This document shows, piece by piece, positions 6,915 through 34,680 of a stretch of DNA of 38,972 nt; position 1 is the first letter of the stretch, and each line of letters begins with the position of its first letter. The notes under the pieces were generated by a model. That model was not told where the DNA came from and did not search any database. It saw only the letters and a list, made by a program, of their open reading frames with translations. The DNA is from Deltaproteobacteria bacterium PRO3 (GTDB taxonomy: Bacteria; UBA10199; DSSB01): assembly GCA_030263375.1 (NCBI GenBank), contig SZOV01000020.1, positions 1 to 38,972 on the forward strand, written 5' to 3'. Made by a program: the position numbers and the translations under genes.

Positions 6915-8351
<1,437 letters not shown>

Positions 8352-8370
8352 AATCGGGCCGGCGGGTCTA

Positions 8371-9093
8371 CTACCGAGCGATTTTATAGCGTCTCGCCGC
8401 TTCGCGCGGCTCCTTGAGTTCGTCGCCTTCCGGAAATTCCTCGGTCAATCGATAGATCGTTTTGGGACTCAGCCGCTTTGCAGCGACCTCCAGCAAGGCC
8501 CCCTGAACCGCCTCAAAACCGCGGCTCTCCAGGCTCAAGCAGCTCCCCTCCCCCTCAGGGCTGAAATGCAGCGTTAAATAGTTCTCCCCCTCGCAGGCGT
8601 TGCAGGAATAGCCGGCGGGATCGAAGTCATGTTCTTGAAAGATCTCGGCGTCGCGCGGCAGCAATGCGCGGAGCTCCGCCGGAAAATCGCGCCGCGCAAA
8701 GCCCACCAAGACCGACTTCCGACACCCTCCCCACGAGGCCAGCGCTGAGACCTCTCCCTCGCTTTCGCGCCTCAAGGAGAGCTCGGTCGTCCATTCCGGC
8801 GTCTCGTATAACGAAGCGACGACCGCATCGTCGCCAAACTGCTCCTTTAGCCAAGGGACCAAGGCCTTCAAATCGCCGCTCCCGCAGGTGCTCAGCATCA
8901 GGCGATCTCGCCAAACGAGGAGGCTGGATTCGGCCAGCAAAAAGGCGCGGACGGCAGGCGCGCGGTCCTGCCGCAGGATGCGCACGCGCGCGACCGAGGT
9001 CAGCTCTCGCCAAAAGGCCTCGGGCTGATCCAGGAGGCTCAAGCCGGGGCGCAGGACCAAGGCGAGCTTCTTTTCCAGGTAAAGTGGCTTCAT
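8371..9093 (-). CDS. S-adenosylmethionine decarboxylase, eukaryotic AMD1-like
   Basis: 240 aa. It would produce decarboxylated SAM, the aminopropyl donor. It matches the eukaryotic (AMD1) class and not bacterial SpeD: FLLAESSLLVWRDRLMLSTC aligns with the human segment around the pyruvoyl serine. By alignment from memory, processing would be at E55|S56, C70 corresponds to the human catalytic Cys82, S163 (in PAGYS) to Ser229 and H176 (in LHFSPE) to His243, all conserved with near-identical spacing. The protein is about 90 residues shorter than human AMD1, mainly through loss in the middle. Start ATG 9093 is 5 bp after the preceding stop; the frame is open further upstream but there overlaps the membrane-protein gene. 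Last gene of the operon. Confidence 0.88.
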   Translation of the reverse strand: MKPLYLEKKLALVLRPGLSLLDQPEAFWRELTSVARVRILRQDRAPAVRAFLLAESSLLVWRDRLMLSTCGSGDLKALVPWLKEQFGDDAVVASLYETPEWTTELSLRRESEGEVSALASWGGCRKSVLVGFARRDFPAELRALLPRDAEIFQEHDFDPAGYSCNACEGENYLTLHFSPEGEGSCLSLESRGFEAVQGALLEVAAKRLSPKTIYRLTEEFPEGDELKEPREAARRYKIAR

Positions 9094-9098
9094 ATAGT

Positions 9099-10196
9099 TT
9101 AGGCCGCCAACCTTTCCTCCGCCGGCGAGGCCTGGGTCCACTCGAGATCTCCGCGCCTCATTCGCCAGATGAATCCGTCCAAGACATAGTGCGTCGCCTG
9201 CGGGAGGGCCAAGAGGGGGACGAGGACCGCCAACAGGGAAGCATCTTGAAGCGCGGGCAGGCCTTGGAACCACGGGAACAGCTCCGCCTTGTCCCGCCAT
9301 AAGAGCCCGTGCCACAGGCCTTCTTCCATGTATGCCAAGAGCCAGAGCAGTCCGAAAAATAGCGGCAAGGCCGCCAGGGCGTAGGCCCCGCGCCGACTGG
9401 TCGAGGCCGAGAGACGCCGCTCCCCGCTGCTCCAAACGAGGGCGACGTAGGGAATCCCGTGGGCCACGACGTTGGTCAGGGTGAAGGCGAGATCGCCGTT
9501 CAGCCAGACGATCCCGACATACCAGGACAAGGCGGTGCCGGCCAGCAAGAGCTGTTTGGGCCAGTTCCAGGACCGCGTCTTTCGCCAGGCCAGGATCTCC
9601 TTCACGGCGTAGGCCGCGAGGGCCCCGACATAAAAGGCCGCCGTCGCCCGTTCCACCCAAAGCGGGAGGCCGGGAATAAAATCGCCCGAGATCAGCCAAT
9701 CGAAATTCCGCGGCAGATGAGCGTGCCAGTAGACGATGGGGTAGAGGGTGGCGAGATAGATCGCCGCGGCGTCGATCGCGCGACCGGGGCGCGTGGAGGT
9801 CTCGCGCCGGGCATAGATCCTCAGAAAACCATACTGCTGCCGGATGAAGTGAAAGACGGCCAGGTAGGCCAGGGCCGACCAAAAGAGCTTGTCGTCGCTC
9901 GCGTAGAGCGCGACGCCGGCCACCCAGCACAATAGCGGCGCGAGCCGCAAAAGCGTCGCATGCCGGGCCCGCGCCTCGGGGTCGGCGTAGGTGCGGTAGA
10001 GCGTGGCATAGACGTGGGCGACGTCGATGCCCAAGACCAGGACCAGCCAGCCCCAGAGCGGGATCGGCGGGTCCTGGTCGAAATAGCCGCGCAGGGCGAC
10101 GACCGCCAGGGCCGGCAGGGCCATCGGCGCGAGGATGAAGGCGGCGTCGAAGCCCGGCGAACGGATCCAGGGAGTTGGAGGGGAAGCAGTCTTCAT
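9099..10196 (-). CDS. Polytopic membrane protein with intramembrane histidines, unknown
   Basis: 365 aa, about nine hydrophobic segments. I recognise no family. Histidines recur in or at the edge of hydrophobic segments: H61 (DVAHVYATLYRTY), H116 (FHFIRQQYGFLRIY), H158 and H160 (YWHAHLPRN), H246 (VVAHGIPY) and H336 (ATHYVLDGFIWR). The pattern is that of a membrane metalloenzyme or oxygenase with His ligands rather than a simple transporter, but this is inference. The start is 4 bp after the FAD oxidase stop and its own stop is 5 bp from the AdoMet decarboxylase start, so it is an integral operon member. Confidence 0.7.
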   Translation of the reverse strand: MKTASPPTPWIRSPGFDAAFILAPMALPALAVVALRGYFDQDPPIPLWGWLVLVLGIDVAHVYATLYRTYADPEARARHATLLRLAPLLCWVAGVALYASDDKLFWSALAYLAVFHFIRQQYGFLRIYARRETSTRPGRAIDAAAIYLATLYPIVYWHAHLPRNFDWLISGDFIPGLPLWVERATAAFYVGALAAYAVKEILAWRKTRSWNWPKQLLLAGTALSWYVGIVWLNGDLAFTLTNVVAHGIPYVALVWSSGERRLSASTSRRGAYALAALPLFFGLLWLLAYMEEGLWHGLLWRDKAELFPWFQGLPALQDASLLAVLVPLLALPQATHYVLDGFIWRMRRGDLEWTQASPAEERLAA

Positions 10197-10200
10197 CGCT

Positions 10201-11841
10201 TTACGCCGGCACCTTCTTTCCCAGGGATTTTAGGACCGCGTCGGCCGCCGCGATCCCGCGCTCGTGGGCTTCTTCGAAGAGCGACATCCCGCTCATGTCG
10301 CTGTGCGCGAAGTGCAGGCCCGGTAGGCCGCGCCCGGCGGCCGCGCGCGCAGGCCCCCACAAGAAGCCCGGCTCGGGACGAATCATGCCGTGGCCCCAGA
10401 GCCAGACGTCGAGGTGCTCCGCCTCCTCGCGCAGCTCGGGGTGCGCGCGGCCTAAGTCTTCCAAAATCATTTCCCGCCACTCCGCATAGCTTCGGCCCAG
10501 GGCCGCGCGGCGCGCGGCGACGGGGGCCTCATGGTCCAGGGGCCGATAGTAGGTCAGGACCGTCGGTCCCGGGACGCTCTTCAGCCCTTGGTGCGTGGCC
10601 ACCACGTAGCCCAGACCGGGGCTCTCGTAGAGGACGTTGTCCCAGGCGAGCGGCGCCCCCTTCCCCCGCGGCGGGCGCGGCAGACTCAAGTTGGCGACGA
10701 GCCAGGGGGCATAGTGAAAGGCCGCCAAGGCCTCGGGCCGGGATCTTTGATATTCTTCGACCGTATACGCGGCGGTGAAGCGCGGGGCCGCGTAGATCAC
10801 CTGATCCGCCCTAAGCGCCCGAGTCTCGTCGCCCCGCGCGTCCCAATACTCGACCCGGCGGCCGGAACCCTCGGCGGCGACCTTGTAGACCACGGCGTCG
10901 CAGCGCAGCCGATCGCCGCAGGCCTCGCGCAGGCGCCTCGCCAGCCAGCCATTTCCCTCAGGCCAAGTCAGGACGGTATTGGGCTCGGCGTTCGCCGCCT
11001 GGCCGCGGCGCCCGGCAAAATAGTGGATCCCGGCCCAGGCGGAGACCTGATCCGCGGGCGTCCCGAAGTCGTCGCGGCAGCAGTAATCGACGTACCAACG
11101 CAGCGGCCGAGAGCGAAGCCCCTCGCCTTCCAACCACTGCGCCATGCTTTGGCGATCTAATGCTAGAAACTTCCGATCTCGCGAGCTCAAATCGACGGGA
11201 ATCGCGAAGGCCCAGCGGCCGTCGCCCCCCTTCGCGACGCCGAAGGCGGCCATCTTCTCGTGGAAGCGGGCCATCTCGTCCCGCTCCTCGAAGCTCAGGC
11301 CTTCGCGCGGGACAATGCCGCTTTGCCAGGCCCCTTGGAGGAACAACCGTTCTTCCGGCTCGGCGCACAGATAAAGCTCGTGGTAACGAGGCCGGCCGGC
11401 GGCATCGAAGCCGGAGACCACGCCCAACTCTTGAAATAGCCGCAGGACCGATTCGGACTCGGGATTGGCCAGGGGGACATAGTGGGCGCCCCAGGGGTAG
11501 GCGGAGATCGCATTCTCCCCGCCGCGCGAGTTGCCGCCGCTCGCCTCATCTAATTCCAAAAGGACGAAGTCCTCGAAGCCGGCCTTGCGGAGCCGCCAAG
11601 CGGCGGAGAGCCCCGCGATCCCGCCGCCGACGATAACGCAGGAGGCCTGCTCGACGCGGCTGGGCGCCGGAAATCCGCCCGCGCGCAACCGATGCGCACG
11701 GGCCGCGTCGGCCCCGCAGATCCGCCCGGGAATCTCGCGGCGCGAACCGCCCAGGCGTCCGCAGGCCGCCAGCAGCCCCGCGGCGGCGATGCCGACGCCG
11801 AAGCCCTGCAAAAAGCGCCGTCGGGTCCAGAGCGGCTTCAT
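10201..11841 (-). CDS. Exported FAD-dependent amine oxidase-like lipoprotein
   Basis: 546 aa. The N-terminus carries a twin-arginine signal (TRRRFLQG, residues 6-13) followed by a hydrophobic stretch and lipobox L24-A25-A26-C27, suggesting Tat export of the folded flavoprotein and lipid anchoring. The FAD motif VGGGIAGLSAAWRL (G72-x-G74-x-x-G77) and downstream ELDEASGGNSRGG are typical of the flavin amine oxidase/phytoene desaturase superfamily; the C-terminal GLHFAHSDMSG...GIAAAD is the closing FAD strand. Amine-oxidising activity, perhaps on a polyamine, is inferred from the neighbouring aminopropyltransferase and AdoMet decarboxylase. The start ATG 11841 overlaps the upstream stop in an ATGA; the frame runs further upstream but there it overlaps the neighbour. 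Confidence 0.82.
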   Translation of the reverse strand: MKPLWTRRRFLQGFGVGIAAAGLLAACGRLGGSRREIPGRICGADAARAHRLRAGGFPAPSRVEQASCVIVGGGIAGLSAAWRLRKAGFEDFVLLELDEASGGNSRGGENAISAYPWGAHYVPLANPESESVLRLFQELGVVSGFDAAGRPRYHELYLCAEPEERLFLQGAWQSGIVPREGLSFEERDEMARFHEKMAAFGVAKGGDGRWAFAIPVDLSSRDRKFLALDRQSMAQWLEGEGLRSRPLRWYVDYCCRDDFGTPADQVSAWAGIHYFAGRRGQAANAEPNTVLTWPEGNGWLARRLREACGDRLRCDAVVYKVAAEGSGRRVEYWDARGDETRALRADQVIYAAPRFTAAYTVEEYQRSRPEALAAFHYAPWLVANLSLPRPPRGKGAPLAWDNVLYESPGLGYVVATHQGLKSVPGPTVLTYYRPLDHEAPVAARRAALGRSYAEWREMILEDLGRAHPELREEAEHLDVWLWGHGMIRPEPGFLWGPARAAAGRGLPGLHFAHSDMSGMSLFEEAHERGIAAADAVLKSLGKKVPA

Positions 11842-13346
11842 CCGCCCCCCGGATACCGGGCCCATTCCTCCTCGTAGTACCGGACCAGGGCCTGGTTGTT
11901 GAGTTGGTTGACTTCGGTCTCCACGGGGGCCATGTCGGGCGGAAACTCCGTCAGCCCGGGCAGCATGGACTCGCGCAGGAATTTCAGGTCGGCCGGCAGG
12001 GCCCGCCCCGCCGCGACCCTGGGCTCGTCCCTCCCCGCCAAGATGAAGCCCCACTCGCCGAAGGAAGGCACGTAGACGTGGTACGGCAGGGTCTTCAGGC
12101 CGACGCTGTTCAAGGAACGGTTGACGCACCAAAAGGACTTACGCGCCACCAAGGGCGAGGTGCTCTGCACGACCGCGAGGCCTTCGGGCGCCAAGAGGCG
12201 CTCCAGTTCGCGGTAGAAGGCGGTGGTGTAGAGCTTGCCCAGGGAGAAATTGGTGGGATCGGGGAAGTCGACGACAATGAAGTCGTAGCCCGGCGCCGCC
12301 TGCTTCGCCCAGATGAAGGCGTCGGCATTGACCACGCTCACCTTGGGCGAGCTCAGGGCGCCGCCGTTGAGTTTAGTCAAGAGCGGCTGGGTCTGGAATA
12401 GATGGGTCACCTCGGGGTCGAGATCGACCAGGGTGACCGACTCCACCTCGGGATATTTCAGGATCTCGCGCACGGCCAGGCCGTCGCCGCCGCCAAGCAC
12501 TAAGACTCGCTTGGCCTGGGGGACGGCGCGCAGGCCGACGTGGACCAGGGCCTCGTGGTAGCGGTATTCGTCGCGGGAGCTGAATTGAAGATGCCCGTTC
12601 AGGTAGAGCCGCATCTCGTCGCCTTCGGAGGTCAGCACGATACGCTGGTAATCGGAACTCTTGGAGAAGACGATGCGTTCGGAGAAGGCGGCCGTCTCGG
12701 ACCATTCCTGGATCCGGCCCGAATAGGCGAAGCCCAGCCCGAGCAGGATCAGCACCAAGGTGCCCGCGCCGCGCAGCAGCTTGGGCCAGCCCAATTGGTT
12801 CCGAAACAGGTGCAGGGCCCAGAGGGCCACGAGGACGTTGAAGATCCCGAAGAGCAGCGAGGTCCGGATCAGCCCCAGGCGCGGAATCAGGAGCAAGGGG
12901 AACAAGAGCGAGGCGACCAGGGCCCCGATGTAGTCGAAGGTGAAGACCTTCGAGACGAGGTCCTTGAACTCGAAACGGTCCTTCAGGATGCGCATCAGCA
13001 GCGGGATCTCGAGGCCCACCAAGGTGCCGATCAGGGCCACCATCGAGTACAACAAGGTACGAAAGCCAGTGACGTAATGAAAGCTGGCAAACAGAAGGGC
13101 CGCGGAGAAGCCTCCCACCAGGCCGATGATCAGCTCGACCTGGATGAAGACCGCCACCAAGTTGCCCCGGACGTATTTGGAAAGGTAGCTCCCGATCCCC
13201 ATCGAGAAGAGATAGACGCCGATGACGGTGGAGAACTGCGTCACCGAGTCGCCCAGGAGGTAGCTCGCCAGGGTGCCCGCGACCAGCTCGTAGACCAGGC
13301 CGCAGGTAGCGATCACGAAGACGGAGAGCAGCAGGAGGTAGGACAT
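11838..13346 (-). CDS. Membrane-anchored polyamine aminopropyltransferase (SpeE-like)
   Basis: 502 aa. Residues 1-210 form about six to seven membrane helices. Residues 225-470 are a spermidine-synthase-type domain: GHLQFSSRDEYRYHEALVH (the polyamine-site strand), SAM motif LGGGDGL (284-290), acidic D310, NADAF (D342) and D360-F-P-D363-P, equivalent to the catalytic D-x-x-D-P of aminopropyltransferases. It would transfer the aminopropyl group from decarboxylated SAM to an amine at the cytoplasmic face of the membrane; the acceptor is unknown. Classical SpeE is soluble and about 280-300 aa, so the membrane domain sets this subfamily apart. It starts 4 bp after the DUF350 stop. Confidence 0.88.
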   Translation of the reverse strand: MSYLLLLSVFVIATCGLVYELVAGTLASYLLGDSVTQFSTVIGVYLFSMGIGSYLSKYVRGNLVAVFIQVELIIGLVGGFSAALLFASFHYVTGFRTLLYSMVALIGTLVGLEIPLLMRILKDRFEFKDLVSKVFTFDYIGALVASLLFPLLLIPRLGLIRTSLLFGIFNVLVALWALHLFRNQLGWPKLLRGAGTLVLILLGLGFAYSGRIQEWSETAAFSERIVFSKSSDYQRIVLTSEGDEMRLYLNGHLQFSSRDEYRYHEALVHVGLRAVPQAKRVLVLGGGDGLAVREILKYPEVESVTLVDLDPEVTHLFQTQPLLTKLNGGALSSPKVSVVNADAFIWAKQAAPGYDFIVVDFPDPTNFSLGKLYTTAFYRELERLLAPEGLAVVQSTSPLVARKSFWCVNRSLNSVGLKTLPYHVYVPSFGEWGFILAGRDEPRVAAGRALPADLKFLRESMLPGLTEFPPDMAPVETEVNQLNNQALVRYYEEEWARYPGGG

Positions 13347-13350
13347 GGCC

Positions 13351-13566
13351 TCAGTGCACCGCCATGGCGATGATCAGGCACATCCCCAGCGAGACCGCGC
13401 CGATGACGATGGCCAGCGCGGTGTTGTGCTCCTCGATCAGCTCTTTCCACAAGGAAAAAGGCGCCATGCGATTAAAAACCCAAAAACTCAGCCCGAACAG
13501 CACCATTCCCAGGACCGTAAAAACCGCGGCCCCCACCAAATTTTGCAAAATTCCGTCCCATTGCAT
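13351..13566 (-). CDS. DUF350 membrane protein
   Basis: 71 aa, one DUF350 unit: a hydrophobic helix (about residues 9-30), a short polar loop (LWKELIEEHNTALA) with the family's Glu/Asn residues, then a second helix to the C-terminus. Many DUF350 proteins carry two such units; this is a single unit and may dimerise. DUF350 is recurrently found beside DUF4178 and SpeE-like membrane proteins in envelope-linked operons (general knowledge, not checked here). A strong Shine-Dalgarno (AAGGAGG) lies just upstream, overlapping the end of the 47-residue gene. Confidence 0.82.
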   Translation of the reverse strand: MQWDGILQNLVGAAVFTVLGMVLFGLSFWVFNRMAPFSLWKELIEEHNTALAIVIGAVSLGMCLIIAMAVH

Positions 13567-13577: not shown

Positions 13578-13721
13578 TTATTTATGGCTGAAACCGTAGC
13601 CGCCGCCGGAACCCATTTGGTTCAGGGTGCGGAGAAAAAATTTCGACAGGACGAAGTTCGTCCGGTTGACGCCGCCCAAGCCGGCCAGGACGATCGCCCC
13701 GAAGATCAAGTATCTTTTCAT
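13578..13721 (-). CDS. Small 47-residue membrane/exported protein
   Basis: ATG at 13721 to TAA at 13578-13580; 47 residues. It begins MKRYLIFGAIVLAGLGG, a positively charged start plus a short hydrophobic helix, then a polar part ending in a Gly-rich GSGGGYGFSHK tail. It sits exactly in the gap between the larger DUF4178 gene (6 bp after that stop) and DUF350, whose Shine-Dalgarno overlaps its stop codon; this tight packing is the main evidence that it is real. I recognise no family. It may be a single-pass partner of DUF350 or of the DUF4178 proteins. Confidence 0.6.
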   Translation of the reverse strand: MKRYLIFGAIVLAGLGGVNRTNFVLSKFFLRTLNQMGSGGGYGFSHK

Positions 13722-13727: not shown

Positions 13728-14948
13728 CTACTCTTCCGCAAAATCACTTTGCATCCAACGCGTGGTATTAAAACTCCACCGGCGAAATTTCAGCCACAGC
13801 GGATAAAGCCAAAGCAGGAGCCCCGCGCCGACGAAATTCGACCACTGCGATCTTTGCGGGATCAATTCGACCCGAAACTCCCCCGACATCGGCCAGGGCC
13901 CCGAAAAGGGTTGCAGCGTCACCTGGTAGTCCCCGTCGGGCAGGTCGGCGATCGCGCTGACCGCGGTGGCCCCCTCGGCGGCGTTTCGGAATTCTTGGAA
14001 GACCCGATAGGTGTCGATGCCGGTCGGGGTCTTCAACTGGACATCCAAGTTGAGATAGGACCCCGTATAACCCGTCACCTTGGTGCGGAGCAGAAAATCC
14101 AAGCCGCCGGCCCGCACGTGGGCGAGCTTCGGAAACTTCCCCCCGGCGGCCTTCAGGCCGGCCGCGCTCGCCACCTCTACATAAACGGGGTCTTGGCGGC
14201 CGGAGCGATTCGTCCCCAACTGGACCAAGAGGAGCAGCAGGGTCATCACCACCGCGGTCCAGAAATACTTGCGGTACTTCGCGTCGTGGGGCGAGGGCTG
14301 GTTGGGGGCGACACCGATGCGCGCCGGCATCGCTTTGATGCCGAAGGCGGCCTGGACGACCTCGGGCTCGACGTACTCGCCGATGGACCAGACCTCTTCG
14401 CCGGCGTCCCACTCGCGGGAGAGCATCTCGGGCGGGTTGATGAAGTCCTGGACGGAGACGCGGTCGCCCTTCTTCACCCGCCAGTAAAACTCTCCCAGGA
14501 CGTAGAGCACCTGGGCCTCGCCGGTGAGAAAGAGCTGATAGGATTTATCGAGATACTGCGCCGATTTGTCGCGCCGGTGCGGCTTCTGCTTGGTGGAGAT
14601 GACGTAGTTCCAGTGCCCGTCGGCCTCGACCAGCCAGCGGTAGCCGATGTAGGGATTGAAGAGGAGGTATTCGCGCCACTTGTATTGCCCCGTCCCGTCG
14701 GCGCGCTGCATGAAGCCGATCATCTCGTAGGTCTCACCGTGGAACTTGCCGCGGGCGCCGAGCGGGATCAACGGCTGAAGCCGGGTCTTCTCCTGCGACT
14801 GGATCAGGAGCTGGACCTCGGGGTTGGAGACGTCCAGGACGGCACCGCAATGCCCGCAGACGAGGGTGATCGAGAAGCCGGGGGCGCGCCACTGAACGGC
14901 CCCGCCGCATTGCACGCAATTCAGGACTTTCGCCTTCTCACCAGCCAT
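13728..14948 (-). CDS. DUF4178 protein with zinc ribbon and two membrane helices
   Basis: 406 aa. An N-terminal zinc ribbon has two CxxC pairs (C11/C14 and C31/C34). Next comes a DUF4178 beta domain (LGARGKFHGETYEMIGFM, then YKWREYLLFNPYIGYRWLVE), with a second module around residues 140-190. A membrane helix lies at about 225-240, followed by an extracytoplasmic-looking beta domain, and a final helix at about 370-388. DUF4178 has no established biochemical role. The start overlaps the end of the other DUF4178 gene by 11 bp, so the two are translationally coupled paralogues. Confidence 0.82.
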   Translation of the reverse strand: MAGEKAKVLNCVQCGGAVQWRAPGFSITLVCGHCGAVLDVSNPEVQLLIQSQEKTRLQPLIPLGARGKFHGETYEMIGFMQRADGTGQYKWREYLLFNPYIGYRWLVEADGHWNYVISTKQKPHRRDKSAQYLDKSYQLFLTGEAQVLYVLGEFYWRVKKGDRVSVQDFINPPEMLSREWDAGEEVWSIGEYVEPEVVQAAFGIKAMPARIGVAPNQPSPHDAKYRKYFWTAVVMTLLLLLVQLGTNRSGRQDPVYVEVASAAGLKAAGGKFPKLAHVRAGGLDFLLRTKVTGYTGSYLNLDVQLKTPTGIDTYRVFQEFRNAAEGATAVSAIADLPDGDYQVTLQPFSGPWPMSGEFRVELIPQRSQWSNFVGAGLLLWLYPLWLKFRRWSFNTTRWMQSDFAEE

Positions 14949-15570
14949 CCAGCTCCCTCAAATTTTTCATCCTCAGGTCCGGCAGCTCGAGGTACTCGCC
15001 GACGTAGAGCCGCGTCTCGCCCGCGGCGAATTCCAAGGTGGCGAAGCGCCCGTCCGGCCCGCTGAAATCCACGCCGACACTCTTCTCGCCGGGCTTGAGC
15101 AGGAAAGGCAGCTGGCCGGCGATGCCCTCGACGACGGCCTCGCGCCGGTCGTCGACCTGGTAGCGCTTGCTTCCCAGCTCCCACACCGTGCCCACCTGTA
15201 ACTGCTCGAGAGTGGGGATCGGCTTGGGCAAAGGCCCCGGCCTCGAGACCGAGTAAAAACCCTGCGCTTCCGCGAGCCAGGCCTCGCCTTCGTCGCCAAA
15301 GTCCATGAACCACTCGTTCCAGGCCCCTTCGGCCCAGCGGCGCCGGATACGGCCGGTCAGCACGAAGGACTTGCCGCCGTAGCTGCCTTCCGAGCCGATC
15401 TGCAGCGGCGAGTAGTCGTCCTGCAACAGGGCCACCTGCCCCAGGCTCTCGAGGTGGAGGTCCTTGCGCACCAGCATCGAGCCGCAATAGGGGCAGACGG
15501 CGTAGAACAGGGCCTTCGAAGGAAAAGGCACGGCGCCGCCGCAGGAGCTGCATGGGAGTTGAAGGGCCAC
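14938..15570 (-). CDS. DUF4178 protein with N-terminal zinc ribbon
   Basis: 210 aa from GTG 15570, which has CGAGG about 7 nt upstream. CxxC pairs at C7/C10 and C26/C29 form a zinc ribbon, followed by DUF4178 segments (IGSEGSYGGKSFVLTGRIRRR, then NEWFMDFGDEGEAWLAEAQG). It has no membrane helix, unlike its downstream paralogue. First gene of the eight-gene polyamine/DUF operon. The 67-bp gap upstream shows no promoter I can defend, so transcription might also continue from the giant gene upstream. Confidence 0.8.
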   Translation of the reverse strand: MALQLPCSSCGGAVPFPSKALFYAVCPYCGSMLVRKDLHLESLGQVALLQDDYSPLQIGSEGSYGGKSFVLTGRIRRRWAEGAWNEWFMDFGDEGEAWLAEAQGFYSVSRPGPLPKPIPTLEQLQVGTVWELGSKRYQVDDRREAVVEGIAGQLPFLLKPGEKSVGVDFSGPDGRFATLEFAAGETRLYVGEYLELPDLRMKNLRELDGW

Positions 15571-25602: not shown

Positions 25603-26862
25603 TCAGACGTAGCCCAAGGCGTGGATGATCTTGAAATGCGCCGCGCGATAGCCGGGGATCAAGGAAGACAGCAGGGTCGACCCCATCGAGATGGCGAAGG
25701 TCTGCAGATAAATCTCCGGGCTCAACGAGATGGTGCAGATATAGACCCCCGAGGCCTGCGGTGGCTGCATGGGGATCCCAACGGCGGACAAGAGGTAACC
25801 GACCCCGGTCGCGAACAAGAGGCCGAGGCAGGAACCCAGGAGACCCAGGATCGAGGTCTCCAAAAAGATCATCCCGAAGATGACGCCTCGGCTGTTACCC
25901 ATGGCCATCATCGTGCCGAATTCCCGCATCCGTTCGGAGAGTATCATGTTGGTGGTGTTCGCGACGCTGAAGAAGAAGATGGTGCACATGATCAGCTGGA
26001 TGGTCATGTATATCTGCCGGAGCAGATCCTTGCTCTGCCGGTAATACTGTCCTTGCTCCACCCAGGTATACAGCTCCGCGGCCACTCCCCTGCCCTTCAG
26101 CGCCCCCTCCAGCTCCGCTTTGGCCGTCTCGGTATCGGCGGTATCCTCGAGAATGACCAAGAGACTGTGGATTTGATTGGGCAGGCCCAGAATATCCTGA
26201 GCGGTCTTCAAATTCATCTTCATGGAACGGTCGTCAAAGTCCTTGATGAAGGTCTCGAAGACCCCGCGGACCCGCAGTTCCGCGCCGTCCAAGGCGCCGG
26301 CCTTCCGGGCGGTCAAGAAATTGAGGGCGTCGCCGACCTTGAGCCCCAGAGACTGCAACAGCCCCCTCCCGACGACCACGCCGTAGGGATCCGACGCATC
26401 GAGATCGCTGCCCTCGACGATGTTCGTGGAGGCCACGTTGCGATGCGAGGTCTGAAACTGCCCCATGCGCTTCTCCAGAATGGGATCGACGCCCAGGGCC
26501 AAGACCGCGATGCCGGTCTCGCCGGTACTGGCCATGCCCTGGAGCTTCAAGCGCGGCACCGCATAGGAGACCCGGGGGTTGGCGCTTAAAATCTCACGGA
26601 TCGGCTTGTCGTCCTCGATCAGGAAATCCAGCGGCGCGCGGGTCCCGTGAAGGTGATAGCCTTTGGCGTTGATCTGGATATGGCCGGTCTGACTATGGAT
26701 AAACACCTCTCCGAAGCCCTCGATCATATTTTGGAAAAATCCGCCGACCACGACCAGCCCGGAGCAGCCTAGGACGAGGATGGAAAGGGTAAGGAGGGCC
26801 CGGCGCTTGTTCCGGAAGATGTTCCTCCAGGCGATCATCAAAAGCATGGTGAATTTTCTCAT
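25603..26862 (-). CDS. FtsX/LolC-type ABC transporter permease
   Basis: 419 aa. One N-terminal helix follows a basic stretch (WRNIFRNKRRALLTLSILVLG), then a large extracytoplasmic domain (about 45-290), then three C-terminal helices: the FtsX fold of lipoprotein- and lipid-handling (LolCE, MacB-type) transporters. No ATPase gene is next to it, so it must borrow one or work with one encoded elsewhere. The start ATG 26862 has AAGGAG 8 nt upstream and overlaps the acyl-ligase stop as ATGA; an earlier in-frame start at 26895 lies inside that gene and is less likely. Last gene of the lipid operon. Confidence 0.85.
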   Translation of the reverse strand: MRKFTMLLMIAWRNIFRNKRRALLTLSILVLGCSGLVVVGGFFQNMIEGFGEVFIHSQTGHIQINAKGYHLHGTRAPLDFLIEDDKPIREILSANPRVSYAVPRLKLQGMASTGETGIAVLALGVDPILEKRMGQFQTSHRNVASTNIVEGSDLDASDPYGVVVGRGLLQSLGLKVGDALNFLTARKAGALDGAELRVRGVFETFIKDFDDRSMKMNLKTAQDILGLPNQIHSLLVILEDTADTETAKAELEGALKGRGVAAELYTWVEQGQYYRQSKDLLRQIYMTIQLIMCTIFFFSVANTTNMILSERMREFGTMMAMGNSRGVIFGMIFLETSILGLLGSCLGLLFATGVGYLLSAVGIPMQPPQASGVYICTISLSPEIYLQTFAISMGSTLLSSLIPGYRAAHFKIIHALGYV

Positions 26863-28577
26863 GGCCTGAGCTCCTTCACGTCCTGGACCTTGCACCGGCT
26901 CCGGATGGAATCGGCGAGGTTCTGACGCTTGAGTTTCAAGGACGCGGTTCGCGGAAATTCCTCACTCCAAAGCAGATACGACGATACCCGCTGGTATGGG
27001 GGGATGCCCCGGTTCCATGTCATGAGGGCGGCGGGGACTCGACCGTTTTGGACGCTCTCCTTGGGTCGCAGCACCATCAAGAGCTGGTCGCGGCCCAAGG
27101 GTTGATCCGGCCACAGGTAGCTCTTGGAAAAGACGCAGAACTCCTCGCACTCCTGAAGCCCGGCGAAATGACGCTCGACGTCCTCGGGGTAGATGTTCTT
27201 GCCGCCCTCGGTGACGATCATGTTCTTGATGCGCCCGACGATCTTCAAGGTATCCCCGCCCTCGAGGATGCCGAGATCTCCCGTCCGTAGCCAGCCGTCG
27301 ACGAGGGTTTCGGCGGTCAGCCCGGGATCTTTCCAATAGCCCTTCATTACGGAGGGCCCCTTCACCCAGATCTCGCCGACCCCGCGCTCGTCCGGATTTT
27401 CAATCCGAACCCGCGTCAAATGAAGCACCCTTCCTACGTTGTCGCTGGAATACCTCCCCCAGGTCGGGGCGGAGACGGCAGTCCCGGCCTCGGTGAGGCC
27501 GTAGCCGATCCCGACGAAGAAGCCCAAATCGTAGAAGAACCGGGCGAGCCCGGGCTCGACGAAGGCGCCGCCGGTCATGATCAGGCGCAGGCAGCCGCCG
27601 AACTCGTCGTGGATCTTCGCCAGCAGGCGCTTGGAAATCCAATGCCGCGGACTTTTGGTCAGGCCGCGGTTGATCGCGACCAATCCGCGCAGGGCAAGCC
27701 GTTTCGACGCGGGGAGGGCCGTTAACTTCTCCTCCAACCTCGATTTGAGCATCGCCAGCAGCATGGGGACCATCGAGGCGGCCGTGATCCGGTATTTTTT
27801 AAAGGTGGGAAGCAGGTATTGCGGCCTCAGCGTCCGCTGATGGACCACTTGGGCGCCGACGTTCAGCGGGTAGAGAAACCCGAAGACAAAATCGATGGCA
27901 TGATTGGTAGGAAGGAAGGAGAAATATCGGTCCTCGCTCCCCAAGCCGGTACGGAGGTGAAATTGCTCCAATTGGCTCAGGTAGTTCGCATGGGTCAGCA
28001 TGCAGCCCTTCATGGCCCCGCCGGTCCCCGAGGAGTAGACGATCGCGGCGACGTCCTCCGGACGGCGGTCCCGATATTGGAAATTCTCCCCGGCTCCCTC
28101 CTCCCATCTCCAGGCGCCGCCCAATTCCGCGCCGGCGGGGGCCTCGGTCACGAAGGTCTTGGGGAAATCTTGGGGAAGCCTTCCCGCCTCCAGAATCTGC
28201 CGCCAGAATTGCCATTCGACGACCAGGACCTTCGGCTCGCTGTGCCGGATCAATCGCAGCCAGTCTTGCGGGCCCAGCTTGAAGTCCAAGGGCACGAGCA
28301 CCCCGCCGGCCCAGAATACGCCCATGGCGGAAAGGAGCCACTTGCCTTGATTGGACATGACGATGGCGCAGCGGTCCTCCGGAGCGAATTTCTTGGCCTG
28401 GAGGTTCGCGGCGAAGCGCTCGGCCTCCTCCCGCGCCTGCCGGTAGGTCCAACGCTGCCTCTCTTCCTCGCGGTCCGCCTCGATGAGGGCGACGCGCCCC
28501 GCAAAGCGTTCGCAGGCGTCCCGCAGGGCCTCGCCCAGCGAGGAGAATTTCATAAAGAGATTCGACTTACCCGTCAT
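26859..28577 (-). CDS. Acyl-adenylating enzyme (AMP-dependent synthetase), paralogue 2
   Basis: 572 aa ANL-superfamily enzyme. The ATP loop is YSSGTGGAMKGC, motif A5 is GYGLTEAGTAVS, the hinge/ATP region is GWLRTGDLGI and IVGRIKNMIVTEGGKNIYPEDVE, and the C-terminal catalytic Lys lies in the PRTASLKLKRQNL segment. It would activate a carboxylic acid, probably a fatty acid, as an acyl-AMP and load CoA or the nearby acyl carrier protein. Whether it is a FadD-type CoA ligase or a carrier-protein-loading FAAL cannot be decided by eye. AAGGAAG precedes the ATG by 6 nt. It lies 9 bp from its paralogue. Confidence 0.88.
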   Translation of the reverse strand: MTGKSNLFMKFSSLGEALRDACERFAGRVALIEADREEERQRWTYRQAREEAERFAANLQAKKFAPEDRCAIVMSNQGKWLLSAMGVFWAGGVLVPLDFKLGPQDWLRLIRHSEPKVLVVEWQFWRQILEAGRLPQDFPKTFVTEAPAGAELGGAWRWEEGAGENFQYRDRRPEDVAAIVYSSGTGGAMKGCMLTHANYLSQLEQFHLRTGLGSEDRYFSFLPTNHAIDFVFGFLYPLNVGAQVVHQRTLRPQYLLPTFKKYRITAASMVPMLLAMLKSRLEEKLTALPASKRLALRGLVAINRGLTKSPRHWISKRLLAKIHDEFGGCLRLIMTGGAFVEPGLARFFYDLGFFVGIGYGLTEAGTAVSAPTWGRYSSDNVGRVLHLTRVRIENPDERGVGEIWVKGPSVMKGYWKDPGLTAETLVDGWLRTGDLGILEGGDTLKIVGRIKNMIVTEGGKNIYPEDVERHFAGLQECEEFCVFSKSYLWPDQPLGRDQLLMVLRPKESVQNGRVPAALMTWNRGIPPYQRVSSYLLWSEEFPRTASLKLKRQNLADSIRSRCKVQDVKELRP

Positions 28578-28586
28578 GCTTCTTCC

Positions 28587-30296
28587 TTACAGTTCTTGAA
28601 GACCTTCCTCAGTTACCCGGCGCTCCCGGACCTTTTCGGCCAACAACTGCCGTTTCACCTTCATCGTGGCGGTGCGGGGAAACTCCTCATCCCACGGCAA
28701 GGCGTATCCCAGGCGCTTGTAGTCGGCGAGCCGCCGGTTGCGGACGCGAAACTCCTCGAGGACCGAGGGAATATCGGCACCCTTCCCAGGCCGGTACAGG
28801 ACGGCCAACCTCTCGCCGGTCAGGCGGCGCTTGGGCCAAAGGTAATTCGCCGCGAATACGCAGTACTCCTCGCAGCCCGGCACCTCGCCGAGCAGGGCCT
28901 CGACGTCTTCCGGATAGACGTTTTTCCCGCCCTCGGTGACGATCATGTTCTTGGCGCGCCCGGACAGCCGCAGATGGCCGGAGGCGTCGATGGAACCGAG
29001 GTCGCCGGTCCTCAGCCAACCCTTCACCAGGGTTTCCTCGGTGAGCTCCGGGTCGTCCAAGTAGCCTAGCATGACGCTCGGCCCCCGGACCCAGACCTCC
29101 CCCACGCCCTGTTCGTCGACGGATCGGATTTCCACCTCGGTGCCGGGTACGGGCCTCCCCACGGTGTCGCCGCGGTAGGGCTTGAGGTCGTTGAGGGTGA
29201 TGGCCGTCCCGGCCTCCGTCATGCCGTAGCCGATGGAGACCGGGATGCCGAGTCCGTAAAAAAAGTCGCAGAGGGATTTTTCGACGAAGGCGCCGCCCGC
29301 GAGGATCCGGCGCAGCCGCCCGCCGAAGCGGTCGTGGACCGGCTTGAAGACGGTCCGCTTGAGGGCCTCCAAGACGCGAGGGGAAGGCACGGTGTCGTAG
29401 AGCCTGCGGCTGAATTCGAAAATCGTACGTTTCACTTCGGGCTGCCGCTCCAATTCCTCCTCGATACCCTGCTTAAAGGCCTTCAGCAGCAGAGGCACCA
29501 GGGCGGTGAGCGTGACGCCGTAGCGCCTCATGGCGGAGAGGATGAATTGAGAGCGCAAGGTGCGCTGGTGCACGACCCATGAGCCGCAGAGCAAGGGGAT
29601 GAGGAAACCGCACATGAAATCAATGGCGTGGTTTGTCGGGATGATCGAGAGATAGCGATCCTCCTCGGTCGGCTGGACCAGATTTCCCAGCTGCTCGATC
29701 TGACTCAGGTAATTGTCGTGGGTCAGCATGCAGCCTTTGGCCCGCCCCCCGGTACCCGAGGAATAAACGATGGCCGCGACGTCCTCCCGGCGGCGGGACC
29801 GGAAGCACAGCGCCTGCGCCGGCGCCTCCTCCCAGCGACGGGCCTTGCTCAATCCCGCCTCCTCCGGCGCCTCGACGGCAAAAATCGCCGGCGGTCGAAG
29901 AGGGGTCGGAAGGATTTCTCGGAGCTTGTCCCAAATGGCCCACTCCACCACCAGGGCCTTTGGCTTGCTATGACTGAGCAGAGCGGCCTGCTCCGGGGCG
30001 CTGAGTTTGTAGTCCAGGGGGACGAGGATCCCTCCTGCCCAAAGGATGCCCAAGCCGGAGAAGACCCACTTCGCTTGGTTGGACATGAGGATCGCGACGC
30101 GATCTCCGGCCCGAATGCCGTGCGACTGCAGCAAGGCCCCGAAACGCTCGGCCTCCCCGTGGGTATCCCGGTGCGTCCAGCGTCCGATCTCGGTCTCGCG
30201 GTCGACTTCGACCAGGGAGGTTCGGGACTTGAGAGGAATGCCCGACTCGCGAATCGCTTCGCCCAGCCCCTCATATGCGGACAAACGGAATCTCAT
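28587..30296 (-). CDS. Acyl-adenylating enzyme (AMP-dependent synthetase), paralogue 1
   Basis: 569 aa, clearly a tandem duplicate relative of the next gene (shared SNQxKW, AGGxLVPLDxKL, YSSGTGG, PTNHAIDF and KNMIVTEGGKNxYPEDVE blocks). ATP loop YSSGTGGRAKGC, A5 GYGMTEAGTAIT, catalytic Lys region PRTATMKVKRQLL. The presence of two enzymes suggests two different acyl substrates, or one CoA ligase and one carrier-protein ligase. The start ATG overlaps the stop of the acyl carrier protein gene (ATGA), supporting functional coupling to it. Confidence 0.88.
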   Translation of the reverse strand: MRFRLSAYEGLGEAIRESGIPLKSRTSLVEVDRETEIGRWTHRDTHGEAERFGALLQSHGIRAGDRVAILMSNQAKWVFSGLGILWAGGILVPLDYKLSAPEQAALLSHSKPKALVVEWAIWDKLREILPTPLRPPAIFAVEAPEEAGLSKARRWEEAPAQALCFRSRRREDVAAIVYSSGTGGRAKGCMLTHDNYLSQIEQLGNLVQPTEEDRYLSIIPTNHAIDFMCGFLIPLLCGSWVVHQRTLRSQFILSAMRRYGVTLTALVPLLLKAFKQGIEEELERQPEVKRTIFEFSRRLYDTVPSPRVLEALKRTVFKPVHDRFGGRLRRILAGGAFVEKSLCDFFYGLGIPVSIGYGMTEAGTAITLNDLKPYRGDTVGRPVPGTEVEIRSVDEQGVGEVWVRGPSVMLGYLDDPELTEETLVKGWLRTGDLGSIDASGHLRLSGRAKNMIVTEGGKNVYPEDVEALLGEVPGCEEYCVFAANYLWPKRRLTGERLAVLYRPGKGADIPSVLEEFRVRNRRLADYKRLGYALPWDEEFPRTATMKVKRQLLAEKVRERRVTEEGLQEL

Positions 30297-30526
30297 TTCG
30301 ATCCTTCGATCGCCTTCGCCAGATCCTGGAAGGTGGTCGTTTCTTTGAGGACGTAATCCGGAATCGTGACGTCGAAGGCCACCTCCAGGTCCCCCAGAAG
30401 ATCCAGGGCTTGCAGGCTGTTGATGCCCAACTTCTCGAAAAAGTCGTCTTCAGGCTTGAGCTTCTTGGAATCGACGTGGAATCGATCCGCGACCAACAGG
30501 ATCAGCTTGCTTGTGGTTTCATCCAT
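30293..30526 (-). CDS. Acyl carrier protein
   Basis: 77 aa four-helix carrier protein. The phosphopantetheine attachment Ser is S37 in GINSLQALDLL (an NSL variant of the usual DSL). The surrounding acidic residues and the FDVTIPDYVLKETTTFQDLAKAI C-terminal half are typical. The NSL variant and its location mark it as a dedicated carrier rather than the fatty-acid-synthesis AcpP. It has GAGG upstream of its ATG and overlaps the next ligase by 4 bp. Confidence 0.9.
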   Translation of the reverse strand: MDETTSKLILLVADRFHVDSKKLKPEDDFFEKLGINSLQALDLLGDLEVAFDVTIPDYVLKETTTFQDLAKAIEGSK

Positions 30527-30548
30527 GACACACCTCTACATTTGACGT

Positions 30549-32000
30549 TCAAGAATGCGTTTCCAAAACCTCGCGGAGCTCCGCGGGAATTTCCGGCAGA
30601 AAGTTCTCCGGCTTCCGGGCGACCCGACGCGCCGGAAATTGCGGATAGACCCGCAGCACCTCGTCGATGAAAGACATCCCCATCTTGCCCATCAGATCCA
30701 GTTGGCGCGGCAGCACCCGGGCGATGTCCTTCGCGACGGCCCCGGACTCGCTTTCGAGCCTTCCAAGGATATCGAGGAGCTTCCCCTCGAGGTCGGGCTC
30801 GTCGACCTTGAGCAGCAGGCGCTCGTGGCCGCGCTCCGCCATGATATTGGTGATCCGCTCGTCCATCGTGATCCCCGCGGAAGGGACCAAGGCGGGCATC
30901 GAGGTGACGATGGCATGGTAACGGGAGCTGACCATCAGGTCGGCCCGCCTCAGGACGCTCACCAAGTCGTACATGTCGTAGTCGTCGCTGACGAAGACCG
31001 GGGGTTCCCGCTCGAAGAGCTTCGCCAGGTCCTCGCAGGCGCGGCGATCCAACTTCTCCATGCCGACCAAGGCCACGAAGAGCCCGCGTTGCGCGGCAAA
31101 ACTCCGGACCGCGCCTGCGATGGCCGCCAGGTAGTCGCGGTATTTTTTCCGGTTCTCCTCGTTGAATTCGTGGAAATAGAAGGACTGGTAGTGCTCTTCC
31201 CGATACTCCCCCATCCACTTCAGGGCCGCGGCCTTCAGGTAGCTGGGCGCGATGGGCCACCAGAAGGGGTTGATTGGGCAAACCAGCAGAATTTTTTGTT
31301 TCCCGTCCCATCCCGCCTTTCGCAGGATCGCCTCGGCCCGCGCACGGGGCGCGGCTCGGAAGGTCCAGGCGGTGTCGGTCCCCTCGGCGGTGCGGATATC
31401 CAGCCCCGCGAGGACCCTGCGCGAGGGCTCGTTGCGACAGACGATCAGGGAGTCCGCGCAGTACTTTCGAACCAGCTCCCGCAGGTCCTCGTCCATCGCG
31501 CCGGCCTCGGCGCCGTAGCCGACGCTGAGCTTGCGCTCGCTCGCGGCCAGACCCAAGGCCCCCGTCATAAAGGTGGAGAGGGCATTAGAGAACTTGGATT
31601 TGAACATGCTTCCCTCGCAGGCCACGACGCCGTGATGGCGAGGGACCTCCTCGAAGAGGAACTTGGGATAGACCAGGGGCATGGGGATCTGGCGGACGCC
31701 GCGAAAATATCCGGCCGTTCGAGCCAAGTCCACGCTGAGGATGCTGAGCTCGGCGTTCTCGTCGCCGAGGATCAGCCTCATCTGCCGCAGCATCTCCTCG
31801 ACCCGCACGTCGGCGCCGGTGTTCCTCGCCCCGACATAACCCGCGAACAGCAATTTTAAGGGCTCTCCCGGGCGCCAGCGCTCCCGCTCGAATCCGAGAT
31901 TGAAGCGAAAGGCGGCGGCGTCGATCAGGCCGCCCATGACCGATTGCAGCATCCGATCGGGATTCGCGCGATGCATGGCTTTTTGAATCAGCGCGTTCAT
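30549..32000 (-). CDS. Polysaccharide pyruvyl transferase family protein
   Basis: 483 aa. The N-terminal segment FAGYVGARNTGADVRVEEML and the C-terminal SRYHAIVTSMPALVPSAGI match the GT-B-like polysaccharide pyruvyl transferase family, which adds ketal pyruvate to sugars or acts on related phosphate acceptors. Length is somewhat above the usual 350-430 aa, mainly at the N-terminus. In this operon it suggests that the lipid carries, or is joined to, a sugar. The start overlaps the SDR stop (ATGA); its own stop is 22 bp before the carrier protein ATG. Confidence 0.82.
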   Translation of the reverse strand: MNALIQKAMHRANPDRMLQSVMGGLIDAAAFRFNLGFERERWRPGEPLKLLFAGYVGARNTGADVRVEEMLRQMRLILGDENAELSILSVDLARTAGYFRGVRQIPMPLVYPKFLFEEVPRHHGVVACEGSMFKSKFSNALSTFMTGALGLAASERKLSVGYGAEAGAMDEDLRELVRKYCADSLIVCRNEPSRRVLAGLDIRTAEGTDTAWTFRAAPRARAEAILRKAGWDGKQKILLVCPINPFWWPIAPSYLKAAALKWMGEYREEHYQSFYFHEFNEENRKKYRDYLAAIAGAVRSFAAQRGLFVALVGMEKLDRRACEDLAKLFEREPPVFVSDDYDMYDLVSVLRRADLMVSSRYHAIVTSMPALVPSAGITMDERITNIMAERGHERLLLKVDEPDLEGKLLDILGRLESESGAVAKDIARVLPRQLDLMGKMGMSFIDEVLRVYPQFPARRVARKPENFLPEIPAELREVLETHS

Positions 32001-33127
32001 GAGGCGGCCTCCAAAACGGGCGGTTCAGGGAGTGGGCGATAGGGATATTTGAAGCGATGCTCCTCGGCATAGGCCATCAAGGCCTTGGCGTAGGCCCCGA
32101 AGCTGGGCGGCCCCTCCCCCAACTCCTCCTTCAACCTGGCATTGTCGTAGACGGCGTCTTCCACCAGGTGCGGCATGAAGAATTTAAACAGCATCGCCAT
32201 GCGCGAGATACGCCAATTGGGACGGCGATCGGACAGCCAGTCGCAAAGCCTCGTGAAGGGGCGCTGGAGCCTGGGCAAGAAGGGTCTCCTGCCGCCGCCC
32301 AAGACCGCGACGACCTCGCGGTAGCTGAGCGAATCGGTCCCGGAGCTGAGGTGGTAGACATCGTGCTTCGGCCGCTCGCGGCGATGGAGCTCGGCGATCG
32401 CCCGTGCCGTGAAATCGGCGGGCACGATGTCGATCCTCCAATCCGGGTCCAGCGGCAGCGCCGGCGCCTTCGCCAACCAGGCGAAGGCCCGCACCATGTC
32501 GAATTGGGTGGTCGCCGCGAAGCGCGAATCGCCGATGATGGCGCTGGGCCGGAAGGTCAGAACCGCGCCCTGCGGCAACAGCTCGCGCGCCAGGTGCTCG
32601 GCCATTTTTTTGGTGGCGCCGTAGGCGTCGAGATCCGGCGCGTTCCATCGGATCGCCCCCTCCTCTTTCACCGTCTCGCCGCGGCGGTGCCCCGAGACGG
32701 CGACGGTCGAGACGTTGCTGAAACGCCGGAGGGCCCCGTGCCGGGCCAGTTCCTGGGCGAACTTGACGACCTCCAGGGTCCCCTTCACGTTGACGTTGAG
32801 GCAGATCTCGTAGGAGCGACGATTGAGCGAGGCCGCGCAATGGATTACGGAATCGACGCGGCTCCGCAGGTCTTCGCGAGCCTCCGCGCTCAAACCTAGA
32901 TCCTTTTGGGTGATATCGCCGAGGTAGACCTTCATTCGGCTCCGGTACAGCCGCTGGAAACTGTCATAATCGAAGTGCAGCTGGAGGGAACGCCACAGCC
33001 GCCCCTCGGCCTCCTTCGGACGCCGCGCGCGGACCAGCAGGCAGAGGGGGCCGTCCTGGCCCTTGAGCAACTCCGCGGCCAAGTAAGAGCCCAGAAAACC
33101 CGTCGCGCCTGTCAGTAATACGGCCAT
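31997..33127 (-). CDS. Thioester-reductase-like extended SDR
   Basis: 376 aa from ATG 33127. Nucleotide-binding motif TGATGFLG at residues 6-13, Ser/Thr at 140-141 (SNVSTVAVSG) and Y169-x-x-x-K173. The order VRARRPKEAEGRLWRSL, YLGDITQKDLGL, VIHCAASLN is that of the male-sterility/thioester reductase NAD-binding family, which reduces acyl thioesters or acts on derived aldehydes. The frame stays open upstream, but there it only overlaps the fatty acyl-CoA reductase gene; TGATG joins the two (1-nt overlap). It overlaps the pyruvyl transferase gene downstream by 4 bp. Confidence 0.85.
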   Translation of the reverse strand: MAVLLTGATGFLGSYLAAELLKGQDGPLCLLVRARRPKEAEGRLWRSLQLHFDYDSFQRLYRSRMKVYLGDITQKDLGLSAEAREDLRSRVDSVIHCAASLNRRSYEICLNVNVKGTLEVVKFAQELARHGALRRFSNVSTVAVSGHRRGETVKEEGAIRWNAPDLDAYGATKKMAEHLARELLPQGAVLTFRPSAIIGDSRFAATTQFDMVRAFAWLAKAPALPLDPDWRIDIVPADFTARAIAELHRRERPKHDVYHLSSGTDSLSYREVVAVLGGGRRPFLPRLQRPFTRLCDWLSDRRPNWRISRMAMLFKFFMPHLVEDAVYDNARLKEELGEGPPSFGAYAKALMAYAEEHRFKYPYRPLPEPPVLEAAS

Positions 33128-34680
33128 CAGCGCCCCCTCCCCGCGATGCGAAGGCCGGCGCGGCCCTCCCGCGGTATGCAAAATCCCTCCGGGACGCTTA
33201 GTTTCTCCACCGGTTTCCCCTCGAGGACCGGATAGCACCAGCGCCGCAGGCCGGGCTCGAGGACCTTGAGGATGTAATGGCGCCAATCGATGTCTTCGGG
33301 CCTCGCCGCAAACTCCTCTTCCTCGATTTGGTATTTCGCCAAGGCCTCGGTGACGAAGCGGAAGTCCGTCCGGTAAATGAAGGGCGCGAAGACCTCGACC
33401 ACCTTCTCGGTCTTCACCAAGGCCCACTTCGCCTTGTTCACCGAACTCAGGGCCTTGTTCAGGTATTCGTGGACGGCCTTGGGGCTGCGTTCCTTGAGGC
33501 CGCGCAGCGCCTCGAAGACCGCGGTCGCCGCCTTGCGCAGGCTCTCCGGCCCCAGGGAGCTGTCCTGGGAAACGGCCACCGAATCCCAACGAGAGAGGAA
33601 GATCCTCTCCAGCGGCGAGGCGGATTGCCTCCAGTGGGCGCGATGCGCGAGGTTCAGCAGCTCGAGCATCCGGTCCAGACGCAGGGGATTCCGTTGCGAG
33701 CTGCCGACTTGGATCACTTCCGAGGGACAGCCCTCCATCAGGGCCGCGCCCGCCACGGTGACCGCCTGGCAGACGTGGTCGACCGGGATCACGTCCAGGA
33801 CATGCCGGGTGTTGATCGGAAAAAAACGCAGCCAGGTCCCCAATAGGTAGGAAAGCGGCGCGCAGGTCTGGGCGCCCTCGTTCCAGCCTGGAAAGGGGTA
33901 TTGCATCGAGCTCTCGACGACGGCGGGGCGGACCACGCTGTATTTCAATTTTCCCGCGCGCTTCCGGATCAGGCTCTCGGCCAGGCTCTTCGAATAAGTG
34001 TATCCATTGGGCCAGCCGTAGCCGGCGGCGCGCCGTCGCGCCTCCTCGACCCACTCGGAGTCCTTGAGGCTCGCGGTCTTCACGAAGCTCAAGAGCTCGT
34101 CGTATTCGGCCTCGGCGTTCATGGGCCTGCCGTTGGGCGTGTAGTCGGCCGCCAAGGTCTCCGGCGCGAGGCCTTCGCGGATATCGCCGACCACGTAACA
34201 GGTCGAGACGTGGACCAGGGCGGCTTGCCGGCAACGCTTGGCGAAGTCCACTGCGTGAATGGCGCCGGAGATATTCGTGGCCACAGCCTCCCGCAGGTCC
34301 GGCTCGAAATCCACCAAGCCCGCGCAGTGTACGATCAAGTCCAATTTTCGGAATAATTCCTCCGCGACGGAGGCCTCGATCCCGAAATCCGGGAGCGAAA
34401 CATCCCCCTCCACGACCTCGACCCGCGCTCCCAAATAGGCGCCCAACCCCGCGCCATGCCTGCGGTGCAAGGGCTCGAAGGCGTAGGAAGTCGCGACGAT
34501 CTCCTCGAAGCGCTCCCAGGCGCCCAAGTCGCGCTTGCGTCGGACGAGCACGTAGATCTTTTCGATTTCCGGAACGCGGTCGAGCATCAAGGAAAGCCAT
34601 ACCTTGCCCAGAAATCCGGAGGCCCCGGTCAGGAGGATGTGTCTGCCGCGATAGGCGCGATGGATGGAAAGTTTCGGCAT
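33127..34680 (-). CDS. Fatty acyl-CoA reductase (alcohol- or aldehyde-forming)
   Basis: 517 aa from ATG 34680, preferred over 34704 because it forms a TGATG junction with the upstream stop and has GGAG 9 nt upstream. TGASGFLGKVWLSLMLDRVPEI (from residue 18) and YGWPNGYTYSKSLAESL, with Y227-x-x-x-K231, are hallmarks of fatty acyl-CoA reductases of the plant/insect/Marinobacter type. The C-terminal half (about 370-517) is the associated male-sterility C-terminal-like region. It would reduce an activated acyl chain with NAD(P)H. Translational coupling to the reductase-like SDR and position in an ACP/ligase operon support a role in making a long-chain alcohol- or aldehyde-derived lipid. Confidence 0.87.
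   Translation of the reverse strand: MPKLSIHRAYRGRHILLTGASGFLGKVWLSLMLDRVPEIEKIYVLVRRKRDLGAWERFEEIVATSYAFEPLHRRHGAGLGAYLGARVEVVEGDVSLPDFGIEASVAEELFRKLDLIVHCAGLVDFEPDLREAVATNISGAIHAVDFAKRCRQAALVHVSTCYVVGDIREGLAPETLAADYTPNGRPMNAEAEYDELLSFVKTASLKDSEWVEEARRRAAGYGWPNGYTYSKSLAESLIRKRAGKLKYSVVRPAVVESSMQYPFPGWNEGAQTCAPLSYLLGTWLRFFPINTRHVLDVIPVDHVCQAVTVAGAALMEGCPSEVIQVGSSQRNPLRLDRMLELLNLAHRAHWRQSASPLERIFLSRWDSVAVSQDSSLGPESLRKAATAVFEALRGLKERSPKAVHEYLNKALSSVNKAKWALVKTEKVVEVFAPFIYRTDFRFVTEALAKYQIEEEEFAARPEDIDWRHYILKVLEPGLRRWCYPVLEGKPVEKLSVPEGFCIPREGRAGLRIAGRGR

Follow-up and report, generated by a model that had tools for sequence, protein, structure and literature searches.

The window analyzed in this study is a stretch of 38,972 nucleotides from Deltaproteobacteria bacterium PRO3 (contig SZOV01000020.1), the minus strand of which carries an operon running from position 15570 to 8371. 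Its first gene encodes a DUF4178 protein of 210 aa (14938..15570; PF13785, E 1.5e-17) and is followed by genes for a second DUF4178 protein with a zinc-ribbon-like N-terminus (13728..14948; PF13785, E 1.6e-21), a small protein of 47 aa (13578..13721), a short DUF350 membrane protein of 71 aa (13351..13566; PF03994, E 1.4e-12), a membrane-fused aminopropyltransferase of the PRK03612/NF002956 type (11838..13346; NF002956, 691 bits, cut-off 472), an FAD amine oxidase with a Tat signal and a lipobox-like LLAAC (10201..11841; PF01593, E 5.8e-16), and a histidine-rich multi-TM protein of 365 aa (9099..10196). The last gene is predicted to encode a compact class 2 S-adenosylmethionine decarboxylase (AdoMetDC) proenzyme of 240 aa (8371..9093). 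It starts with an ATG at 9093 close behind the preceding gene of the same strand and runs for 240 codons, and the plus strand of this region is interrupted by stops.

Several of these genes recur elsewhere. The small protein is conserved at the same position in G010, a genome from another family of the phylum, in which one contig contains genes for Band7-SHOCT, DUF4178, DUF4178, the small protein, DUF350, and the aminopropyltransferase, and another contig contains the FAD oxidase and AdoMetDC. The Band7 partner of the G010 operon had no match within the window with our own profile. Homologues of the FAD amine oxidase were identified in L009, L075, and L085. The 365-aa membrane protein, which has no Pfam or NCBIfam match, is conserved in a congeneric genome and was seen in no genome besides this one and that of the window; the other operons examined lack a counterpart. 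In G010, two small DUF4160/DUF2442-like genes lie between DUF350 and the aminopropyltransferase (L041, 5373-5924).

The 240-aa protein matched the SAM_decarbox family PF01536 with 65.5 bits and an E-value of 5.9e-18 (cut-off 22.2), each half of the protein containing one of the two matching stretches, whereas the class 1 SpeD family PF02675 gave no whole-protein match and reached the C-terminal half only (E 0.29, 11.9 bits vs. a cut-off of 25). A phmmer search against PDB returned AMD1-type enzymes only (human 1msv, E 2.3e-8). The score against NCBIfam TIGR00535 was 58.7 bits, which is under the 233-bit equivalog cut-off, and full-length bacterial class 2 proteins likewise score under this cut-off. 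By family, the window protein is thus a class 2 (eukaryotic AMD1-type) AdoMetDC with predicted catalysis, in agreement with the original prediction of a eukaryotic-type enzyme in a bacterium; class 1 SpeD as the best family had been named there as the contrary outcome, and class 2 was found instead.

The residues expected of such an enzyme were all identified where they had been predicted. The putative self-processing site E55-S56 (codons 8926..8931; human E67-S68) lies in an invariant ESS, and C70 (8884..8886; human C82, the catalytic proton donor) lies in an invariant TCG. Alignment places S163 (8605..8607) and H176 (8566..8568) opposite human S229 and H243, of which the former is needed for self-processing and the latter for its second step (PMC3975893). 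The phmmer alignment further indicates that the equivalents of the adenine and ribose contacts, F157 and E180 (8554..8556; human E247), are retained. Human AMD1 (1msv and 1jl0), potato 1mhm, and Trypanosoma brucei 5tvf share E-S-S, TCG, PxGYS, H, and E with the window protein, which lacks a second ESS and has a single processing site. Different from these conserved positions, only the EK part of the N-terminal F[E/D]GxEK is left in both compact lineages. This motif was found in every full-length member examined, although it is no formal family criterion; F[E/D]G is present in both full-length bacterial class 2 proteins (G071 and G078) and, as FEG, at the N-terminus of the potato and T. brucei enzymes. 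Because the matching human segment bears the active-site residues Phe7 and Glu8, the absence of F[E/D]G makes altered kinetics or an altered substrate possible for the compact enzyme.

An AlphaFold2 model of the window protein, built from a five-sequence alignment, is of low to moderate confidence (pLDDT 62.9, pTM 0.58), with residues 98-134 and 214-240 weak, and contains a strand-helix-four-strands-helix pattern in two repeats; a second model was similar. Foldseek searches with this model placed human AMD1 proenzymes first (1msv, E 1.7e-10, TM 0.65 by query) and the trypanosome and potato enzymes next, whereas class 1b SpeD structures scored far lower (E 5e-3 to 9e-3). A predicted structure missing the two-layer sandwich of AMD1 would have spoken against the assignment, and the predicted fold is nearest to human AMD1. 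With moderate confidence, the model suggests that one chain, which has a single processing site, adopts the two-repeat alpha-beta-beta-alpha fold.

Eukaryotic AdoMetDC consist of two fused class 1b units. Class 1b SpeD (1tlu, 1tmi, and 2iii) is a single unit of approximately 120-140 aa that acts as a dimer, one protomer of which corresponds to each half of the window protein, although the sequence match is marginal; at 240 aa, the window protein is nearly twice as large as this simple enzyme of bacteria. Human AMD1 is approximately 90 residues longer and has an inter-repeat insert. The predicted compactness was confirmed at about 94 residues fewer than human, 54 of which fall in the interval separating the processing Ser from the GYS Ser. 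This interval spans 107 residues in the window protein and 108 in G010 and is longer in full-length enzymes (153 and 151 residues in two class 2 proteins of bacteria, 161 in the human one). The Ser-to-Cys spacing of 14 equals that of the human fragment. The alignment with full-length proteins is colinear through the helix after TCG and then shows a gap of approximately 45-55 residues before the second repeat. The inter-repeat insert is thus absent in the compact proteins, and their total length is below the approximately 300 aa or more that, like the insert, is usual in class 2 without being a formal family criterion. The repeat period, which assumes an 8-residue offset from S55/S63 of Thermotoga maritima (equivalents given in PMC3975893), is 115-116 residues in the compact proteins vs. 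159-169 in other class 2 enzymes, and the former is about one class 1b unit.

The congeneric MAG Deltaproteobacteria bacterium SJ577 (JADYZQ010000070.1) contains the AdoMetDC gene in an intact operon, and the two proteins share 86% amino acid identity across 132 residues, after which the congener contig ends. The dN/dS value between them is 0.25 (132 codons), and those of the operon neighbors are 0.06-0.21. A compact homologue with 29% identity occurs in G010 beside a homologous FAD oxidase. Taken together, the congener copy with its intact operon, the dN/dS value, and the G010 homologue indicate that the AdoMetDC gene is no artefact. Contamination by eukaryotic DNA was considered and ruled out by the bacterial operon context in three genomes. 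The G010 copy retains the catalytic residues and ends early in sequence unlike that of the others, and may be damaged. Its 3′ end (L009, 7652-7700) runs into a short inverted-repeat-like TSPRPFPTLGEGNFS, which apparently truncates the protein.

A survey of 46 genomes of the phylum identified PF01536 in G000 (the window genome), G002, and G010 only, and exactly the same three contain NF002956 above its cut-off; all three lack class 1 SpeD, which two other genomes of the phylum possess. A genome-contig search returned the congener as its sole match, and no class 2 homologue turned up in searches of plasmids, phages, and viral contigs. In G071 and G078, from other small phyla, full-length class 2 genes (307 aa) adjoin soluble SpeE, and phylum scans around G071, G078, and G046 (2, 5, and 1 genomes, respectively), in which large phyla are thinly sampled, added nothing. 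In these few genomes, compact AdoMetDC pairs with the membrane aminopropyltransferase and the full-length form with the soluble enzyme. All three compact genomes fall among the 30 with membrane SpeE of the 385 sampled, a count that treats congeners separately and is indicative only.

Neither a second AdoMetDC of either class nor a second aminopropyltransferase was found in the window genome. The proposal that the enzyme is tied to a specialised operon stands, while its contrast with housekeeping spermidine synthesis does not follow, since these are the sole enzymes of their kinds found there. Profiles identified SpeA arginine decarboxylase in both G000 and G010, so that agmatine would be available and spermidine may be synthesized as well. 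Each of these genomes encodes two PF02784 proteins. SpeA is the second of them in either genome, whereas the first was assigned to LysA by profile in G010 and has an equivalently positioned counterpart, next to argininosuccinate lyase, in G000. No sign of NspC, and thus of the carboxyspermidine-decarboxylase route, was found among these PF02784 proteins.

The neighborhoods of 27 further genomes with a membrane aminopropyltransferase were scanned with our own profiles, and class 2 AdoMetDC was absent from all of them. Related operons carry class 1b genes instead, in the orders class 1b SpeD-DUF4178-DUF350-SpeE-FAD oxidase (L075), class 1b-Band7-DUF4178-DUF4178-DUF350-SpeE (L079), and class 1b-SpeE (L081). 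In the SpeE tree, the window and G010 sequences are sisters (99/95) inside a clade with L075 (100/99). The gene content of these operons and the SpeE tree thus suggest that the decarboxylase role belongs to class 1b in the relatives and to compact class 2 here. The AdoMetDC gene is at the 3′ end of the window operon, whereas L075 and L079 have theirs at the 5′ end, so that the compact gene is not an in-place replacement. In the clade nearest to the window aminopropyltransferase, a panD-like gene (pyruvoyl aspartate decarboxylase; L074, 7516-7875) adjoins the membrane aminopropyltransferase gene (7976-9460). In L097 and L098, the membrane aminopropyltransferase profile matches three successive ORFs, of which the central one is very divergent.

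Since class 1b SpeD is encoded by the related operons of other phyla, the likely function of the compact protein is to supply decarboxylated AdoMet (dcAdoMet) to the membrane aminopropyltransferase. Judging from the conserved residues, the chain, which by model and profile may represent two fused class-1b-like units, would cleave itself at E55-S56 with the aid of S163 and H176 to form a pyruvoyl group on S56. The processed enzyme would decarboxylate AdoMet with C70 as the proton donor, and the resulting dcAdoMet could be used by the membrane-fused aminopropyltransferase of the operon. The product is then probably a substrate of the FAD amine oxidase, whose Tat signal would place it on the outer side of the membrane. 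We consider this reading as a whole, a compact class 2 enzyme that has taken the role of class 1b and lost the insert and F[E/D]G, to be probable.

Two other functions are conceivable. The protein might be a neofunctionalised pyruvoyl decarboxylase that processes itself and acts on another substrate, as suggested by the loss of F[E/D]G and by the precedent of class 1b-derived arginine and ornithine decarboxylases (PMC10407285). However, an arginine decarboxylase, SpeA, is already present in these genomes, the compact protein is their sole AdoMetDC of either class while their aminopropyltransferase needs dcAdoMet, and the equivalents of both substrate contacts, F157 and E180, are kept, which makes this function very unlikely. 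A regulatory pseudoenzyme like the trypanosome prozyme would agree with constraint that is relaxed relative to SpeE (dN/dS 0.25 vs. 0.06) and with the lost N-terminal active-site motif; yet the processing site and the catalytic S, H, and C are intact in both compact lineages and no second AdoMetDC was found that it could regulate, and we regard it as extremely unlikely. Supply of dcAdoMet to the membrane enzyme remains the preferred function.

Some bacterial class 2 AdoMetDC reportedly come from genomes that also encode DUF350 and an MFS-SpdSyn fusion. According to PMC10407285, class 2 AdoMetDC is encoded by a number of bacteria, and Li et al. (2019, Biochem J 476:2579) is cited there for its acquisition from eukaryotes. 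Such enzymes share the PF01536 family and a bacterial host with the window protein, but the examples in G071 and G078, unlike it, have retained the insert as well as F[E/D]G and are neighbors of soluble SpeE. A survey of PSP systems (PMC11237479) describes operons with Band-7/SHOCT, DUF350, DUF4178, and 7TM-SpeE, in which the partner is Band-7/SHOCT or PspA-CesT and the Band-7/SHOCT variant of which has an AdoMet decarboxylase and a polyamine oxidase. The window operon shares with them the membrane (7TM-fused SpeE-like) aminopropyltransferase, DUF350, DUF4178, the decarboxylase, and the polyamine oxidase, and the G010 operon also contains Band7-SHOCT. In contrast to the outgroup operons examined, which have a class 1b decarboxylase, the window operon has a class 2 enzyme, an additional 365-aa membrane protein, and no Band7 in the cluster. 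The SpeD-SpeDC fusions of V. vadensis (271 aa) and D. phosphitoxidans (278 aa) are of similar size and also comprise two fused class-1b-like units (PMC10407285), but class 1b sequence is recognizable in both of their halves, unlike the window protein, and in that of D. phosphitoxidans there are two processing sites rather than one. Fusions of two bona fide SpeD seemingly do not occur in living prokaryotes, and the origin of eukaryotic AdoMetDC has been modelled from a SpeD-SpeDC fusion (PMC10407285). Both the occurrence of class 2 enzymes in bacteria and this type of operon are therefore already known, and the compact variant is provisionally new: we found no description of class 2 enzymes that lack the insert and F[E/D]G in the literature covered, which did not include Li et al. 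(2019). Its presence in two divergent bacterial lineages provides either a form needed for the question of class 2 origin or a natural minimal class 2 enzyme, which would show which parts are dispensable, and its exact co-occurrence with the membrane aminopropyltransferase offers a tractable case for finding the aminopropylation target of that enzyme.

The compact form had been proposed to be minimal ancestral or transferred. Compactness is clear, and the origin is left to an unrooted tree that permits a root on either side. In this class 2 tree (8 sequences, three conserved blocks, eukaryotic rows being fragments), the compact proteins group together (96.4/96) with the full-length G071 as their sister (92.5/83), and a root on the compact stem, as for a relic, or elsewhere, as for reduction, requires one step each. 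We take reduction from full-length class 2, with loss of the inter-repeat insert and F[E/D]G, as the most likely origin, because the literature gives full-length class 2 a eukaryotic origin and the compact form is known from one phylum only.

It is also conceivable that the compact proteins resemble the fused class 1b pair behind class 2 and that full-length enzymes gained the insert and F[E/D]G later. This is consistent with a repeat period near one class 1b unit, with the short spacing common to two compact members of 29% identity, with a class 1b profile that ranks G000 top among class 2 (8.8 bits, p 8.5e-5, in register on the functional residues), and with the E-value of 0.29 that PF02675 reaches on the compact C-terminal half only. 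A second class 1b profile, however, fails to separate compact from full-length proteins, the class 2 asymmetry (processing site in repeat 1 only) is already present in the compact ones, the unrooted tree has full-length G071 as their sister, and the restriction to one phylum also speaks against a relic, which we judge fairly unlikely. The two small profiles and PF02675 disagree, and a clearly closer relationship to class 1b is not claimed. It is quite unlikely that the compact proteins are surviving relatives of a class 1b-class 2 intermediate and that class 2 arose in bacterial membrane-aminopropylation operons and later passed to eukaryotes; if true, the published direction of class 2 transfer would be reversed.

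Elsewhere on the minus strand of the window (26859-34680), a cluster of acyl carrier protein-, AMP-dependent ligase-, and NAD-dependent reductase-like genes was observed, which possibly represents a lipid pathway.
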